A stretch of DNA of 30,606 nt from a virus: positions 1 to 30,606 of the IMG/VR virus record IMGVR_UViG_3300049596_000214. One strand, given 5' to 3'. This document shows, one piece after another, positions 4,810-30,606 of this stretch (position 1 is the first letter of the stretch; the number at the start of each line of letters is the position of its first letter). A program made the position numbers and the translations under genes. Under the pieces are notes generated by a model. That model was not told the DNA's origin, searched no databases, and saw only the letters and a list, made by a program, of their open reading frames with translations.

Positions 4810-5229
4810 ATGATTTACTCAAAAGATGCTTTAAAAAAATATGGGCAACCATCAGAAAAAAACAATTATATGGTTTTGTGGGATGTCCCAGCTCATTTAG
4901 AAATAGGTGTTATTCCTAAAAGAATATATTGCAATAAGGATATGGTTAAACCATTAGAACAGGCTTTTACTAATCTAATTAAAACCGGATACGTTAAAGA
5001 ATTAAAAACGTGGGATGGTTGCTTTAACATTCGCAAGATGCGTGGTTTAAAAAGTATGAGTTTACATTCTTGGGGTATTGCAGTGGATTTAAACGCCTTT
5101 GAGAACGGATTAAACGTAGAACCAAAACTTTCTCAAGGGTTCGTTAAATGCTTTACCGATGCAGGATTTGATTGGGGTGGAGTTTGGAAACGCAAAGACG
5201 GAATGCACTTTCAGTTAGCGAAATTGTAA
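4810..5229 (+). CDS. M15-family peptidoglycan peptidase (endolysin)
   Basis: 139 aa, close to the usual size of a single-domain M15 (VanY/L-Ala-D-Glu peptidase-like) endolysin. The zinc site is visible: SLHSWGIAVDLN gives H86 and D93, and GMHFQL gives H133, with D130 three residues earlier as the likely catalytic acid. The enzyme would cut peptide stems of host murein at lysis. It has no signal peptide, so it needs a holin to cross the inner membrane. The two genes after it are a small two-helix membrane protein and a spanin-like lipoprotein, making a compact lysis cassette. Confidence 0.88.
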   Translation: MIYSKDALKKYGQPSEKNNYMVLWDVPAHLEIGVIPKRIYCNKDMVKPLEQAFTNLIKTGYVKELKTWDGCFNIRKMRGLKSMSLHSWGIAVDLNAFENGLNVEPKLSQGFVKCFTDAGFDWGGVWKRKDGMHFQLAKL

Positions 5230-5946: not shown

Positions 5947-5978
5947 TTGCATTGTATTATGTCTTGAATGTATATTTG
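5947..5978 (+). promoter_or_regulatory. Early promoter: TTG-N21-TATATTTG
   Basis: TATATTTG at 5971-5978 is a full match to the Bacteroidota -7 consensus TAnnTTTG; TTG at 5947 (or 5952) is a possible -33 box. Transcription would start near 5985, giving a leader of about 17 bases before ATG 6002. The stretch from 5971 is TATATTTGTTCAACAAACAA, identical over 20 bases to the minus-strand promoter at 27274. Confidence 0.75.
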
Positions 5979-5987
5979 TTCAACAAA
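5975..5987. promoter_or_regulatory. 13-bp palindrome TTTGTTCAACAAA, candidate operator 1
   Basis: TTTGTT-C-AACAAA is a perfect inverted repeat around a single base, overlapping the -7 TTTG and the predicted start site. The same palindrome recurs at 8124 and, on the other strand, at 27258-27270. Its core TGTTSAACA also occurs in the iteron-like units at 9157 and 27365. Confidence 0.55.
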
Positions 5988-6001
5988 CAAAACGAAAAAC
6001 T

Positions 6002-6547: not shown

Positions 6548-6720
6548 TGGCACAAAAAGTTCTAATCGTTGCAAATCCACAAGGTGTAGATGCAATCACA
6601 ATCGGTAAAGAAGGAACGATTTTAAAAAAATTCTTCGACAAAGCATTAATCCAATTTACTAACGAGTTTGGGGAATTAGAAGAATGGTATTTCTCAAACA
6701 ATGAATTTCAAAACCTATAA
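6547..6720 (+). CDS. Small hypothetical protein, 57 aa
   Basis: ATG at 6547 overlaps the previous stop and its own TAA at 6718-6720 overlaps the ERF gene ATG. The product starts MAQKVLIVANPQGVDAITIG, then a helix with KKFFDKALIQFTNEFGELEEW. It is compact, mixed alpha/beta, and without cysteine. No family recognised. Its place directly before ERF suggests the recombination module. Confidence 0.68.
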   Translation: MAQKVLIVANPQGVDAITIGKEGTILKKFFDKALIQFTNEFGELEEWYFSNNEFQNL

Positions 6721-7277
6721 TGAAAAACCTAATCGAAAAGCTGGTCTTAATTCAAAGTGAATTAAAAGCACCTAAAGGACAAACAAACAAATTCGGTGGT
6801 TACAAGTATCGCTCTTGTGAAGATATTTTAGAAGCCTTAAAACCACACTTAAAAGAGCAAGGTCTATTTTTATCAATTACCGATGAATTAGTAGCACAAG
6901 GCAATAGATACTACATCAAAGCAAGTGCAATCATTACCGATGGTGTAGACCGATGGTCGGTAGATGGTTGGGCAAGAGAAGAAGAAGTTAAGAAGGGAAT
7001 GGATAGTTCACAAATTACAGGTGCTTCTTCGTCTTATGCTCGTAAGTATGCGCTAAACGGATTGTTTGGCATTGATGACACAAAAGATAGTGATGCAACA
7101 AACGATGGCGACATTCCACAAATGCCAACGGTTAATTTACAAACTGCCGTTTATGATATTGGCTTGGCTAATAGTTTAGAAGGATTGAAAACAATTTGGG
7201 CGAAGTATCCACAATTCCAAAAGCAACAAGAGTTTATTGATGCAAAGGATAAAAAGAAAATTGAACTAAATGGATAA
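6720..7277 (+). CDS. erf: ERF-family single-strand annealing protein
   Basis: 185 aa, with the ERF signature GASSSYARKYALNGLFGIDD at residues 101-120 and the usual N-terminal helix and FGGYKYRSCEDILEALKPHL segment (25-44). ERF proteins form rings on single-stranded DNA and anneal complementary strands during phage recombination and circularisation. The length matches ERF proteins with a short C-terminal tail. The gene overlaps both neighbours by 1-8 bases and is followed by genes that look like partners, including a protein with an SSB-like tip at 7774. A PD-(D/E)XK nuclease at 9451 could supply resected ends. Confidence 0.9.
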   Translation: MKNLIEKLVLIQSELKAPKGQTNKFGGYKYRSCEDILEALKPHLKEQGLFLSITDELVAQGNRYYIKASAIITDGVDRWSVDGWAREEEVKKGMDSSQITGASSSYARKYALNGLFGIDDTKDSDATNDGDIPQMPTVNLQTAVYDIGLANSLEGLKTIWAKYPQFQKQQEFIDAKDKKKIELNG

Positions 7278-8199: not shown

Positions 8200-8766
8200 A
8201 TGCAAGAAACGACAAAAGATTTGTGCTATTGGGCAGCACAACTATACCACACAGACCGAGTCCCTTCAGATATTATTTACGATAGAATATTAAATAGCAA
8301 ATCAAGGCTAAAAGAAGTCGCACAAGCGAAGCAATTAGTTGGGTATATGTTATATAACCATTTAGGTTTTACGCTTCAACAGGTAGCTTATGAATTGAAT
8401 TTAACTAATCATTCAACCATTATCTATTGGCTGGATAAAATACAAGTTCAACTTCGTACAAACCGAAGAATGCAATACCGTTATGATTATATGAAAGACG
8501 TATTGCGTGGTGAACAAAAACCAATCATTCGACAAGCATCAAGTGTATCAAACAAAAACGAATTAAGCGAAGCTGATATGCAGTTTATGAAATTAAATTT
8601 TAATAATGGGTATAGTGTTTCGTATTATTCCGATGTATTGCGAAAGAATAGACAACCTGTTAAATCATACTTACGATTTTTATTAAAAGAAATTAGTATA
8701 TTTAGCGCCCCGAAAGTAGATAGGTTTCGTACATCCGGGATTAAATCACAATCAATAGATTATTAA
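8200..8766 (+). CDS. DnaA domain IV-like replication/DNA-binding protein
   Basis: 188 aa. Residues 41-95 resemble the DnaA C-terminal DNA-binding domain: a helix (QAKQLVGYMLYNHLGFTLQQ), VAYELN, then TNHSTIIYWLDKIQ (69-82), corresponding to the DnaA RDHSTV signature that reads the DnaA box. There is no AAA+ domain, so it cannot open DNA alone. A second helical region (SEADMQFMKLNFNNGYSVSYYSDVLRK with a following KSYL) may be another helix-turn-helix. It lies next to the DUF4373 initiator, so it may recognise the phage origin or compete at DnaA boxes. Confidence 0.75.
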   Translation: MQETTKDLCYWAAQLYHTDRVPSDIIYDRILNSKSRLKEVAQAKQLVGYMLYNHLGFTLQQVAYELNLTNHSTIIYWLDKIQVQLRTNRRMQYRYDYMKDVLRGEQKPIIRQASSVSNKNELSEADMQFMKLNFNNGYSVSYYSDVLRKNRQPVKSYLRFLLKEISIFSAPKVDRFRTSGIKSQSIDY

Positions 8767-8767
8767 A

Positions 8768-9451
8768 ATGAAAAAAACTTACTACTTCCAACACGATTTT
8801 GAGGCGATAAGCGACCCTAAAATTCAGTACATTTTGGCAAAGTTTGGTGGCATTGGCTACGGTCTTTGGTGGCGCATTGTAGAAATGTTGCACCAAGAAG
8901 AAGATAACAGGTTAAAGCACAAGGAATATCTATACTTTGCATTGGCTAATCAATTACAATGCGAACAAGGTTTGGTAAAATCTTTTATTCAATCCTGCAT
9001 TGAAGATGTTGAACTTCTTGATAGTGATGGCGAATACTTTTGGAGTGAACGAGTGCTAAAGAATGTAGGTAAAATGCAAGAGTTAAAAGAAAAACGCTCA
9101 AGTGCTGGTAAAAAGAGTGCTGAAAAACGTACTGATAATCAGCAAGTTGCAACAAGTGTTGAACAAGTGCTAACAAGTGTTGAACAAATGCCAACAAAAG
9201 AAAACAAAAGAAAAGAAAATAAACTATATAGTAAGCCAAGTTTGAGTGAGGTTATTGATTTTTTTAATCAAAATGGTTATCAAGATGCAGGTGCTATAAA
9301 AGCATATACCTATTACGATGAAGGAAGCTGGACTGATAGTAATGGCAATAAGGTTAAAAATTGGAAACAAAAGATGCGTGGTATTTGGTTTCGTGATGAG
9401 TACAAGATTAATAAACCAACAGTAGCTAACTTCTCTTTACCTATAAACTAA
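8768..9451 (+). CDS. DUF4373 (Lin1244/Lin1753-like) replication initiator
   Basis: 227 aa. Residues 1-100 match the DUF4373 pattern (YYFQHDFEAISDPKIQYILAK at the start, GGIGYGLWWRIVEMLHQE, then FWSERVLKN). Next is the usual KRSSAGKKSAEKR basic linker. Residues about 124-140 are a direct repeat, TSVEQVL followed by TSVEQMP, then Lys-rich KENKRKENK. The C-terminal part (VIDFFNQNGY, WTDSNGNKVKNWKQKMRGIW) is the DnaD-like end common in such proteins. These proteins act as initiators or helicase-loader partners. The repeat is also visible in DNA as 21-bp units and may be the origin itself, as in lambda O. Confidence 0.85.
   Translation: MKKTYYFQHDFEAISDPKIQYILAKFGGIGYGLWWRIVEMLHQEEDNRLKHKEYLYFALANQLQCEQGLVKSFIQSCIEDVELLDSDGEYFWSERVLKNVGKMQELKEKRSSAGKKSAEKRTDNQQVATSVEQVLTSVEQMPTKENKRKENKLYSKPSLSEVIDFFNQNGYQDAGAIKAYTYYDEGSWTDSNGNKVKNWKQKMRGIWFRDEYKINKPTVANFSLPIN
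9136..9198. repeat. Three tandem 21-bp iteron-like units, copy A (candidate origin inside the initiator gene)
   Basis: Units at 9136-9156, 9157-9177 and 9178-9198. Units 2 and 3 both begin TGTTGAACAA and differ at few positions; unit 1 is more diverged. Each ends in (C/T)AACAAG or a close variant. A purine-rich AAAGAAAA tract follows to about 9222, then CTATATAG. A diverged copy is at 27344-27440. Confidence 0.7.
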
Positions 9452-9837: not shown

Positions 9838-10845
9838 ATGATAAAAAAACTAACTGATTTCGAGAATGAAATTTTGGCATTTCATAAACAAGGTATTCAA
9901 AAAGGCGACTATTGTGGCTTTGATACTCTTGATGAATACTACACAAGGAAAGCTGGTAGTATGACATTCATACTTGCATCGCCACATTCCGGTAAAACTG
10001 AATTTAACCTTGAGTTATTGCTAAACCTTTCTTTACTTCATAACCAAAAGCACATTCTTTTTACACCCGAAACAGGCGATTATAAAGACATTGCTAAAGA
10101 ACTCGTATCGAAGTATTGTAAGAAGCAATTTTTTGCAAGTGATTTTGAGCATTGTACTGAAGCCGAAATTTATAATGCTATAAACTTTCTATCCGATAAA
10201 TTCTTTATTGTAGATAACGATGAAAATAGTTTTACGTTTGATGATATTATAAACCAAACAAAGCAGTTTGAACTTGATAATAAAGTTAAGATAGACAACA
10301 TTCTATTTGACCCATACAACGAGATTAAACACGATATGAAAGATTATGCAGGTCGCCAAGATTTATACATTGAAGATGCCATTGGTAAGTTAAGACGTTA
10401 TGCAAAGAAAGAAAATAAACACATCTTTATTTGTATGCACCCACAAGACCAAGCGCCAATAACCGAAAATGGAATTACTTTCTATCCACCACCACACCCA
10501 AGACAATCAGCTGGAGGGCAATCATTCTTTCGTAAAGCAATGGCATTCATAATTCTTTGGCGACCACCAAAAGGATTTATTGACAATGAAACGCAGCAAC
10601 CATACGAAGATAATGAAACACAAATACATATTGCAAAGGCAAAGCCGAAAGGTAGCGCTAAACTTGGTAAGTGTAAATTATATTTCGATTGGCGTAAAAA
10701 TAGATTTTATGAACGCAAAGATGATGGTATTTACTTTGGATTGGAAGCAAAGGCGAAGCGTGAGCGTAACGTGGAAGCTGGTAACTTGGAATTATCTGCA
10801 TTGAAGAATACATTTGGTAAAGAATTTAACGAAGCACCTTTTTAA
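9838..10845 (+). CDS. DnaB-like RecA-fold helicase/ATPase
   Basis: 335 aa, a single RecA-like ATPase domain without the DnaB N-terminal domain. Walker A is ASPHSGKT (47-54), with Ala instead of the usual first Gly. Walker B is NILFDPYNEI (D158). HIFICMHPQDQ (about 195-205) is the strand with the sensor His/Gln, and GGQSFFRKA (226-234) is the conserved DnaB-like motif with SxxF/RKA. It probably unwinds DNA 5'-3' at the phage fork. No primase or polymerase is encoded, so host enzymes must join it. It sits directly after initiator and nuclease genes. Confidence 0.82.
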   Translation: MIKKLTDFENEILAFHKQGIQKGDYCGFDTLDEYYTRKAGSMTFILASPHSGKTEFNLELLLNLSLLHNQKHILFTPETGDYKDIAKELVSKYCKKQFFASDFEHCTEAEIYNAINFLSDKFFIVDNDENSFTFDDIINQTKQFELDNKVKIDNILFDPYNEIKHDMKDYAGRQDLYIEDAIGKLRRYAKKENKHIFICMHPQDQAPITENGITFYPPPHPRQSAGGQSFFRKAMAFIILWRPPKGFIDNETQQPYEDNETQIHIAKAKPKGSAKLGKCKLYFDWRKNRFYERKDDGIYFGLEAKAKRERNVEAGNLELSALKNTFGKEFNEAPF

Positions 10846-11336: not shown

Positions 11337-11540
11337 ATGACACCAAAAGAAAAAGCAAAAGAGTTATATTTTGATTTCAGTGAAAATCTTTGGTATTCTA
11401 CTGAAGAAGATAAGCATTTGAATGGTAAACAATGTGCATTAATAGCAGTAGATGAGATATGGAATGCACTTGAAGGTGCAAGAGTTTTTGAGGAATATGA
11501 TTATTGGCAAGAAGTTAAACAAGAAATACTGAATTTGTGA
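11337..11540 (+). CDS. Small hypothetical protein, 67 aa
   Basis: 67 aa, starting 2 bases after the previous stop. The product (MTPKEKAKELYFDFSENLWY; LNGKQCALIAVDEIWNALEG; WQEVKQEILNL) is a helical bundle pattern often seen in small Bacteroidota phage proteins containing KqcALiavdEi. No function is known to me. Its stop overlaps the GTG start of the following nuclease gene (GTGA). Confidence 0.75.
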   Translation: MTPKEKAKELYFDFSENLWYSTEEDKHLNGKQCALIAVDEIWNALEGARVFEEYDYWQEVKQEILNL

Positions 11541-11932
11541 AGAATGCTGAAGACATTGTACAACTTGCAGTTGTAAACTACTTGCGTTTGAAATATCCGA
11601 AGATAAGATTTATGGCTAACTATCTTTCCGGTGCAAAGTTGCCGATGTATTTGGCAAAGAAAGCTAAAACACTTGGGCAAGCTGGGCAAGGCACACCCGA
11701 TTTGTTTATCTTTTTCAACAATGGTAAATACACTTCATTGGCAATAGAACTCAAGGCAAATGGTAAAACACCGTTTAAAAAGGATGGTATGTTGAGAAGT
11801 GATGAGCATTTGATTAAACAAAATGACTATATATGCTATCTAAATACTATTGGCTTTTATGCTACGTTCTGCGTTGGCATTGATGAAGCGATTAGCACAA
11901 TAGATAGATATATGGCAAATGAACTCGAATAA
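11537..11932 (+). CDS. VRR-NUC domain nuclease
   Basis: 131 aa with a GTG start at 11537 (GTGA overlap with the previous stop; the nearest ATG is out of frame). The VRR-NUC core is clear: EDIVQLAVVNYLRLKYP helix, GQGTPDLFIFF (P54-D55), SLAIELKANGK (E71-x-K73), then KQNDYICYLNTIGFYATFCVG. The family includes Holliday-junction and flap nucleases of the PD-(D/E)XK fold with a virus-type stand-alone form. Likely role: resolving recombination or replication junctions before packaging. It overlaps the sigma factor gene by 14 bases. Confidence 0.88.
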   Translation: MKNAEDIVQLAVVNYLRLKYPKIRFMANYLSGAKLPMYLAKKAKTLGQAGQGTPDLFIFFNNGKYTSLAIELKANGKTPFKKDGMLRSDEHLIKQNDYICYLNTIGFYATFCVGIDEAISTIDRYMANELE

Positions 11933-27056: not shown

Positions 27057-27242
27057 TTATATTTTAAAATCTTTATATGTTTTAGAAAGTTGTTCTGTTT
27101 TAATCCATTTAGGATTATTTTTAGAACCCTTAACTTGGCAAAGTGTTTTATCGCCTTCGGTTTCTAATGCGATGTACACCATACCTTGCCAATAGTAAGA
27201 ATTAATTCTAAAAAATTCGTTTTGTTCTAATTGAGGTATCAT
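27057..27242 (-). CDS. Minus-strand early hypothetical protein, 61 aa
   Basis: The ATG at 27242 gives MIPQLEQNEFFRINSYYWQG and then MVYIALETEGDKTLCQVKGS, KNNPKWIKTEQLSKTYKDFK. It is an SH3-like or small beta-barrel-like pattern with aromatic residues. A longer frame starting with TTG at 27269 is rejected because that TTG is the end of the promoter -7 box. Transcription starting around 27260 gives an 18-base leader. It is the first gene of the cassette, under a twin of the promoter at 5971. Function unknown. Confidence 0.72.
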   Translation of the reverse strand: MIPQLEQNEFFRINSYYWQGMVYIALETEGDKTLCQVKGSKNNPKWIKTEQLSKTYKDFKI

Positions 27243-27257
27243 ATCTTTTTTGTCTTG

Positions 27258-27270
27258 TTTGTTGAACAAA
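27258..27270. promoter_or_regulatory. 13-bp palindrome, candidate operator 3
   Basis: TTTGTTCAACAAA on the minus strand, overlapping the TTTG of the -7 box and the predicted start site, exactly as at 5975. Confidence 0.55.
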
Positions 27271-27296
27271 TATACACAAAGTTTTTTAAATGCAAA
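27267..27296 (-). promoter_or_regulatory. Minus-strand early promoter TTTG-N18-TATATTTG
   Basis: On the minus strand TTTG (27296-27293), 18 bases, then TATATTTG (27274-27267) form a perfect Bacteroidota-type promoter. From the -7 box onward TATATTTGTTCAACAAACAA is identical to the early promoter at 5971-5990. Confidence 0.82.
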
Positions 27297-27343
27297 AAAA
27301 AATAAAAAAAAAGTGAAATTTTTTTTAATTGATTATCAACGAG

Positions 27344-27406
27344 TTAGCAACAAAATTCAACAAGTGTTCAACAAATGCTAACAAGTGTTCAACAAAATTC
27401 AACAAA
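27344..27406. repeat. Three tandem 21-bp iteron-like units, copy B (intergenic)
   Basis: Units at 27344-27364, 27365-27385 and 27386-27406. Units 2 and 3 begin TGTTCAACAAA; unit 1 shares AACAAAATTCAACAA with unit 3. A purine-rich AAAAGAAAAGAAAAG tract follows to 27440, then ATATATATAG. The left side (27290-27340) is extremely AT-rich. It matches copy A (9136-9222) in order and spacing. No gene is assigned to 27297-27487 apart from this and the promoter. Confidence 0.72.
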
Positions 27407-27452
27407 AGAAAAGAAAAGAAAAGAAATAAAAAGAATATATATAGTGTTTTTA

Positions 27453-27482
27453 TTTGTTTGTGTTTTTATCTTTTTATATTTA
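27453..27482 (+). promoter_or_regulatory. Promoter TTTG-N18-TATATTTA with TTATATTTA start-proximal element (27474-27482)
   Basis: TTTG (27453-27456), 18 bases, then TATATTTA (27475-27482), ending 5 bases before ATG 27488. This is the only copy of the TTATATTTA element that also has a proper -33 box, so it supports the idea that the nonamer is a -7 promoter box. Confidence 0.55.
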
Positions 27483-27487
27483 TTAAT

Positions 27488-27847
27488 ATGATACTTTTAA
27501 GAAAAGGATTTACTGAATACGTGGTATTGCATTTTGATGAACCACAAATACAGGAAGGTTCTATTTATCTTTTAGAATTTACCAATGACATCACAAACGA
27601 GGTTGTTTCAATATCGTTATTTAACCAATCTTATTACATTGAAAGGTATTGTGCATTTGGTATTAACGTAAATACTAATTTTTTATATAAAGAAGAAGGT
27701 TTTTGGAGTTACGAAGTTTTTGAAAGCAGAATTTCACCAAGCATTAAGAGATTATTAGGTTCGGGTAAAATGAAGTTAGTTGGCGAAGAAGCTGGTTATA
27801 CTCAATACGACGGACAAGACGATGAATTTATAGTATATAATAACTAA
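27488..27847 (+). CDS. Hypothetical structural-region protein, 119 aa
   Basis: The ATG at 27488 follows the TTATATTTA element and begins MILLRKGFTEYVVLHFDEPQ, then strands (GSIYLLEFTNDITNEVVSIS; LFNQSYYIERYCAFGINVNT; EEGFWSYEVFESRISPSIKR), ending in YDGQDDEFIVYNN. It has a beta-sandwich look. The longer frame from 27329 would put the iteron tract in the protein and is rejected. Its stop overlaps the fibre gene start. Proteins like this before a fibre gene often connect fibre to baseplate, but that is inferred. Confidence 0.75.
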   Translation: MILLRKGFTEYVVLHFDEPQIQEGSIYLLEFTNDITNEVVSISLFNQSYYIERYCAFGINVNTNFLYKEEGFWSYEVFESRISPSIKRLLGSGKMKLVGEEAGYTQYDGQDDEFIVYNN

Positions 27848-30223: not shown

Positions 30224-30506
30224 GGTACTTGAAACGGAATTAAAGGTAGGAAGTTTAAAACGAGCAATATCGTCAGTAAACATTTTACCATTCAGATACG
30301 AATTGTTTTGCAATGGCGTAAATATAACTTGCCAACTATGTGACGAACAAAATTGTATTTGTTTAGAAGAAATTATATTTATAGATAAGAATAAGTTAGA
30401 TAAGTGGTCAAACGATGACAGCTACCTTGTTCAAGAATTGCTAATAAGATTAGGTTTACAAGAATATAGCAATACAAAGCAAGGCAATAAAGACATAAGT
30501 AAATGA
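30213..30506 (+). CDS. Hypothetical protein, 97 aa, TTG start
   Basis: No ATG exists in the frame; TTG at 30213, 11 bases before the previous stop, is the best start. The product begins with KVKVLETELKVGSLKRAISS (after the initiator) and has Cys-rich middle NGVNITCQLCDEQNCICLEE and a charged C-terminus ending QGNKDISK. C-x-x-C and C-x-C hint at metal binding. It ends at the portal ATG (ATGA). It continues across the contig break, as its last codons also appear at 1-27. Confidence 0.62.
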   Translation: MKVKVLETELKVGSLKRAISSVNILPFRYELFCNGVNITCQLCDEQNCICLEEIIFIDKNKLDKWSNDDSYLVQELLIRLGLQEYSNTKQGNKDISK

Positions 30507-30606
30507 ACGATTTAATAACAATTAATTTTAGCGAATATTCCCAACCTAAATTTGTTGAGAAAAAGAACCAAGAGTGGGTTTCGTATGGTGCTGATAATAG
30601 ATATCC
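30480..30606. repeat. 127-bp terminal direct repeat, copy 2
   Basis: Exact copy of bases 1-127. It shows that the contig is circular and that the last real base before repetition is 30479. Confidence 0.95.
30503..30606 (+). CDS. 5' end of the portal gene (second copy, partial)
   Basis: ATG at 30503 starts the portal frame again (MNDLITINFSEYSQPKFVEK), cut by the contig end at base 30606. It is not a separate gene. Confidence 0.95.
   Translation, partial: MNDLITINFSEYSQPKFVEKKNQEWVSYGADNRY

Follow-up and report, generated by a model that had tools for sequence, protein, structure and literature searches.

Copy B, an element of ~115 bp in a gap among the late genes, repeats an element that lies inside the phage's replication initiator gene (copy A), and it is probably a second origin-type site for the phage's own Lin1244_N initiator, copy A being the first. 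We hold this reading, which was reached by comparing sequences, with good confidence. The element is duplicated in its anatomy, it is conserved among relatives and its iteron class changes together with the initiator; from these observations we infer binding, melting, fork stalling and timing.

The DNA analysed here (the window) is a virus record of 30,606 bp that is circularly permuted; its 127-bp terminal repeat implies a circle of ~30,479 bp. Among its genes, the late ones and those for replication resemble genes of uncultured phage contigs in IMG/VR. No capsid relatives were found among the isolates of the phage collection, leaving the capsid clade without a known isolate, and a host search in which bacterial genomes were scanned with the initiator alignment gave only distant matches in mixed phyla. 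Relatives were gathered by scans with the initiator, the capsid and the downstream gene (~160 loci). Nine near-complete clade genomes holding both regions, the window included (G000-G005 and G007-G009), were self-compared as full records with no prior motif, and a tenth, G036, was added by query. GC skew was uninformative because nearly all genes lie on one strand. The two copies and the genes beside copy B are as follows.

27330 to 27444, plus strand: copy B, the full origin-type element (GATTATCA box, iterons, purine tract and ATATATATAG), in a 218-bp intergenic gap
27365 to 27373, plus strand: copy B palindrome 1, TGTTCAACA
27386 to 27394, plus strand: copy B palindrome 2, TGTTCAACA, 21 bp after palindrome 1
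27404 to 27444, plus strand: purine tract and ATATATATAG, the candidate DNA-unwinding half of copy B
9133 to 9231, plus strand: copy A, the same element within the initiator gene, with palindromes at 9157-9165 and 9178-9186
27057 to 27269, minus strand: leftward 70-aa gene, function not known, with a promoter-like region at 27246-27276 that has a TGTTSAACA palindrome at 27260
27488 to 27847, plus strand: rightward 119-aa gene, function not known, downstream of copy B

Copies A (9150-9230) and B (27358-27439) are 87% identical over 82 bp (E 7e-23), and in the self-comparison they form the strongest repeat of the record, the terminal repeat aside. The first-pass annotation had already noticed that copy B follows copy A closely, and the match extends beyond the part it had marked. 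It had also accepted that a score no better than that of shuffled A-rich DNA would count against the claim; the local A/B score of 107 stands far above 2000 dinucleotide shuffles of copy B (mean 23, s.d. 4, maximum 40), which rules out chance likeness of A-rich DNA. That annotation was also right about the 218-base gap (27270-27487), the purine tract and the stop codon in frame ahead of QQNSTSVQQMLTSVQQNST. From left to right, the whole element comprises a GATWATCA box (TGATWATCA), tandem ~11-bp units with a pair of TGTTNAACA palindromes spaced by two helical turns, then a purine tract that is strand-asymmetric, and finally TATATAG. The shared part is bounded on the left by TGATTATCA (27330-27338 in copy B, 9133-9141 in copy A) and on the right by TATATAG (27438-27444 and 9225-9231, respectively). 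Several of the differences between the copies are C/G swaps at the centre of the odd palindrome (TGTTCAACA versus TGTTGAACA) and do not disturb its symmetry. The GATTATCA box, which somewhat resembles a DnaA box, stands before the iterons of both copies (as GATAATCA in copy A) and is found again at ~5898, upstream of the early promoter. The region flanking the purine tract of copy B (50-bp segment from 27463) lies at the 99.98th percentile of helix instability. For each of six genomes tested, the least stable 50-bp segment near copy B fell at the 98.6-100th percentile of its own genome, versus the 87-99.7th percentile near copy A, and in every one the region at copy B was at least as unstable as that at copy A.

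Eleven relatives of the same class have copy B in the corresponding position, downstream of the capsid gene, and every near-complete clade genome holding both regions (the window and nine others) has the A and B pair. Absence of copy B from close relatives had been put forward as evidence that would undo the claim; it is present in them. When the relatives are aligned, the genes of the left flank differ and those of the right flank diverge while the iterons and purine tract of copy B stay, and copy B, with both of its halves kept, stands out as a conserved island between them. To the left of copy B, the genes of L106, L111 and L110 differ from those of L163, L083, L091, L092 and L108, and L110 is without the 119-aa gene on the right; copy B therefore lies at a gene-exchange hotspot. 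For L108, L113 and L110, the asymmetric part of the iteron in copy B is inverted (AACACTTGTT), with the palindromic core and the 21-bp spacing kept.

Iteron-type palindromes also occur singly, away from the two arrays. The promoter-like region of the leftward gene is near-identical over 31 bp (TATATTTGTTCAACAAAC), in inverted orientation, to a sequence at 5969-5999 before the early genes, and a single TGTTCAACA palindrome overlaps each of the two promoters, at 27260 in the leftward one and at 5977 in the early one. G002 has a near-identical promoter-like sequence with a TGTTSAACA palindrome, at 4913. The position of the TGTTCAACA palindrome inside promoter-like sequences suggests that the initiator may regulate its own expression.

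The gene that contains copy A and the other genes of the replication region are listed here.

8768 to 9451, plus strand: replication initiator, with a Lin1244_N winged-helix domain, a disordered linker and a C-terminal domain
8200 to 8766, plus strand: helix-turn-helix protein resembling DnaA domain IV (Bac_DnaA_C); in this clade its gene immediately precedes that of the initiator
9838 to 10845, plus strand: DnaB-type helicase-domain protein
6720 to 7277, plus strand: ERF single-strand annealing recombinase (E 6e-40)
11537 to 11932, plus strand: nuclease-like protein with a weak match to a Holliday-junction resolvase family (phrog_5702, E 7e-6)

The initiator is of the Lin1244/Lin1753 type, with its N-terminus matching PF14297 at 53.5 bits (curated cut-off 25), and among PHROG families it matches a replication initiation protein best (E 2.5e-21). 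The AlphaFold model has a confident N-terminal domain (residues ~12-128), a disordered stretch (129-152) and then the C-terminal domain; the predicted disordered linker corresponds to nt 9152-9223 and is thus encoded by copy A. A winged-helix fold is predicted for the N-terminal domain, and its many structural matches include RepA-type initiators of staphylococcal plasmids and the N-terminal domain of DnaD (4pt7, 5kbj and 2vn2). This likeness is weak (Z ~7) and is one of common fold only, as no sequence match of the initiator to RepA-type or DnaD proteins was found, and the modelled winged-helix fold alone does not prove initiator function.

The two arrays differ in sequence between genomes, and they do so together. 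The motif-free self-comparison gave A/B pairs in all nine genomes, with one repeat linking the initiator gene to the late intergenic site in each. Five of the ten genomes (G000-G004) are of class 1, with the palindromic iteron, and the other five (G005, G007, G008, G009 and G036) carry class 2 in both copies, GTAACGYRTTCRGAA followed by AAAGTAAAGTAAA, and have an initiator very different from that of class 1. Across 30 genomes scanned, TGTTNAACA-N11/12-TGTTNAACA was seen only at copies A and B of G000-G004, and GTAACGYRTTCRGAA only at copies A and B of G005, G007, G008 and G009. From these matched class changes we infer that the same initiator acts at both sites. G004 separates the initiator from the neighbourhood of copy B: its capsid is 85-88% identical to those of class-2 phages versus 76-85% to those of class 1, its initiator is closer to class 1 (63-66% identity) than to class 2 (35-36%), and class-1 iterons are found at its copy B. 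Copy B therefore follows the initiator and not the adjacent genes, which is our strongest evidence that one protein may read both sites. Phylogenetic carry-over alone is weakened as an explanation by this discordance of capsid and initiator in G004; independent class switches are few. The DnaA domain IV-like neighbour could be an alternative binder of the iterons, but the initiator follows iteron class more closely in its divergence than this neighbour does (48% in G004 versus 42% in class 2 for the neighbour).

One way to describe these changes is as the joint evolution of a lock, the initiator, and two keys, its distant origin copies, with both arrays changing when the DNA-binding domain is replaced, a proposal that we consider evenly balanced between right and wrong. 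If it is true, the replication cycle would depend on the late-gene copy as a functional component, a fork barrier or late origin, and the arrangement would be either shared with the Bacillus subtilis phage SPP1 or independently evolved from it.

A more distant phage, G020 (terminase 44% and portal 38% identical to those of the window), has a third class, with TAATAGCCCCCC units and AAAGGAAAGTAAA in the initiator gene matched again at a late site. That late site is inverted, has the shared ATGCAAAGGAAAGTAAA-like tract and lies between a 341-aa gene and a scaffold-like gene, a different gap from that used in the clade of the window. No second copy of the array was detected in G010, G015, G021, G022 or G029, despite GCAATGCA/ATGCAAAT-like arrays in the linker codons of their initiator genes, nor was a second array found in the sister capsid clade G010-G018 or in the further initiator phages tested, among them Enterococcus EF62phi, Lactobacillus LBR48 and the first 50 kb of Flavobacterium elemoD 13-5B. 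Since the five phages named first have in-gene arrays without a detected second copy, the second site is not required by such initiators and is a feature of certain lineages. For uncultured phages, a simple rule for origin prediction follows: seek a repeat of the initiator-gene linker DNA in a late intergenic gap. A match in L246 (Porphyromonas phage005b, 30230-30600) was rejected as a further A/B pair. Situated before the capsid gene in the late region, it has three GACAAACGACT repeats and shares ~82% identity over 70-77 bp with the DnaD-domain gene of Listeria phages, and it reads as a probable relic of a different, DnaD-type initiator gene.

Three readings of copy B had been offered in the first-pass annotation. 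Of these, a second origin or initiator-binding site is now strongly favoured, a leftover initiator gene is disfavoured and coupling at the divergent promoters is kept as a rival. It is very improbable that copy B is what decay has left of a second initiator gene, even though it reads QQNSTSVQQMLTSVQQNST in the frame of copy A and such remnants exist, the phage005b locus looking like one. The DNA homology of copy B to the initiator gene stops at the ends of the element, whereas the phage005b relic resembles coding DNA beyond its iterons; copy B shows neither coding homology beyond the iterons nor decay without constraint. The spacing of the palindromes is 21 bp in every copy A and 20 or 21 bp in copy B, and thus it is the helical phase that is conserved and not the reading frame. 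The frame-breaking indels, the conservation and the co-variation with iteron class likewise oppose decay. An ORF through copy B (27329-27847, TTG start) was rejected as coding because relatives have stops between copy B and a conserved ATG and because the spacing changes by 1 bp.

The remaining alternatives take copy B to be a binding site of some other kind. The P1 plasmid locus incA and other iteron control loci are extra initiator-binding iteron arrays away from the origin, and a locus of this sort at copy B would bind the initiator, pair with copy A and damp re-initiation without itself firing. Such titration or handcuffing would also need cognate iterons, and it accounts for the co-variation and the helical phasing. 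A pure titrator needs the iterons alone, however, and to our knowledge P1 incA is without an unwinding half; copy B retains both the purine tract and the TATATA half, its instability equals or exceeds that of copy A, and we regard titration as unlikely. Less probable again is that copy B is mainly an operator from which the initiator couples transcription of the divergent genes to replication. Its place between those genes fits, as do the single palindromes overlapping promoter-like sequences in the window and in G002, but the flanking genes are exchanged among relatives while copy B stays, the second site of G020 lies between other genes, and the A+T-rich, origin-like half is retained, although a simple operator could do without it. 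As for a packaging (pac/cos) or partition site that resembles copy A by chance, the late-gene location is what would be expected; the class of copy B tracks the initiator while the terminase stays 73-77% identical across the class change, and we give this explanation almost no credence.

For a second origin-type site, we propose that an initiator dimer would contact the palindromic iterons through its winged-helix domains, and that the two-helical-turn spacing would place the bound copies on one face of the DNA, straining the adjacent purine-tract/TATATA region, where the DnaB-type helicase could be loaded. In this scheme replication would begin early, in theta mode, at copy A. The role of copy B would come later: it would be a late origin, a barrier at which a fork stalls on bound initiator, or both, and the stalled fork, with the ERF recombinase, would bring about a switch to recombination-dependent synthesis of concatemers for packaging. 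The genome has an array and AT-rich element in the gene of its initiator, a second copy in a non-coding late gap and a recombinase, and on the circle of the window the copies are separated by a short arc of 12.3 kb and a long arc of 18.2 kb (11-14 kb and 18-21 kb in other genomes, circularity being assumed where the end repeat was not seen).

Several known systems share part of this layout. The origin of phage lambda, in gene O, likewise has iterons in the initiator gene beside an A+T-rich, strand-asymmetric arm (PMC4488673), but lambda has a single origin of this type, without a second non-coding copy. Copy B resembles P1 incA as an extra array away from the origin and differs from it in keeping the unwinding half. 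Among the papers found, SPP1 is the one phage with both an initiator-gene origin and a late-region origin. Its oriL lies inside gene 38, and its oriR occupies a late stretch between genes, beside accessory genes; both consist of direct repeats and an AT-rich unwinding element, they lie 12-13 kb apart and gp38 binds each of them. In the proposed model, a fork that started at oriL stalls where gp38 occupies oriR, and concatemers then arise through the phage recombination proteins (PMC6316719, PMC3485210). The window, like SPP1, has one origin-type site in the initiator gene (that of gp38/G38P in SPP1) and one between genes of the late/head region, repeats with an AT-rich element at both, a separation of ~12-13 kb on the circle and a single-strand annealing recombinase. 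On the basis of the in-gene copy A, the late intergenic copy B, the arcs and the ERF recombinase, we therefore propose an SPP1-like role of copy B as fork barrier or late origin, a role to which we give about an even chance. Differences from SPP1 are a host phylum that is likely another and the Lin1244_N type of the initiator of the window. The purpose of the second origin of SPP1 rests largely on the fork-stalling model, and the matched iteron pairs in three sequence classes provide a comparative test of whether a second site needs to be recognized by the initiator.
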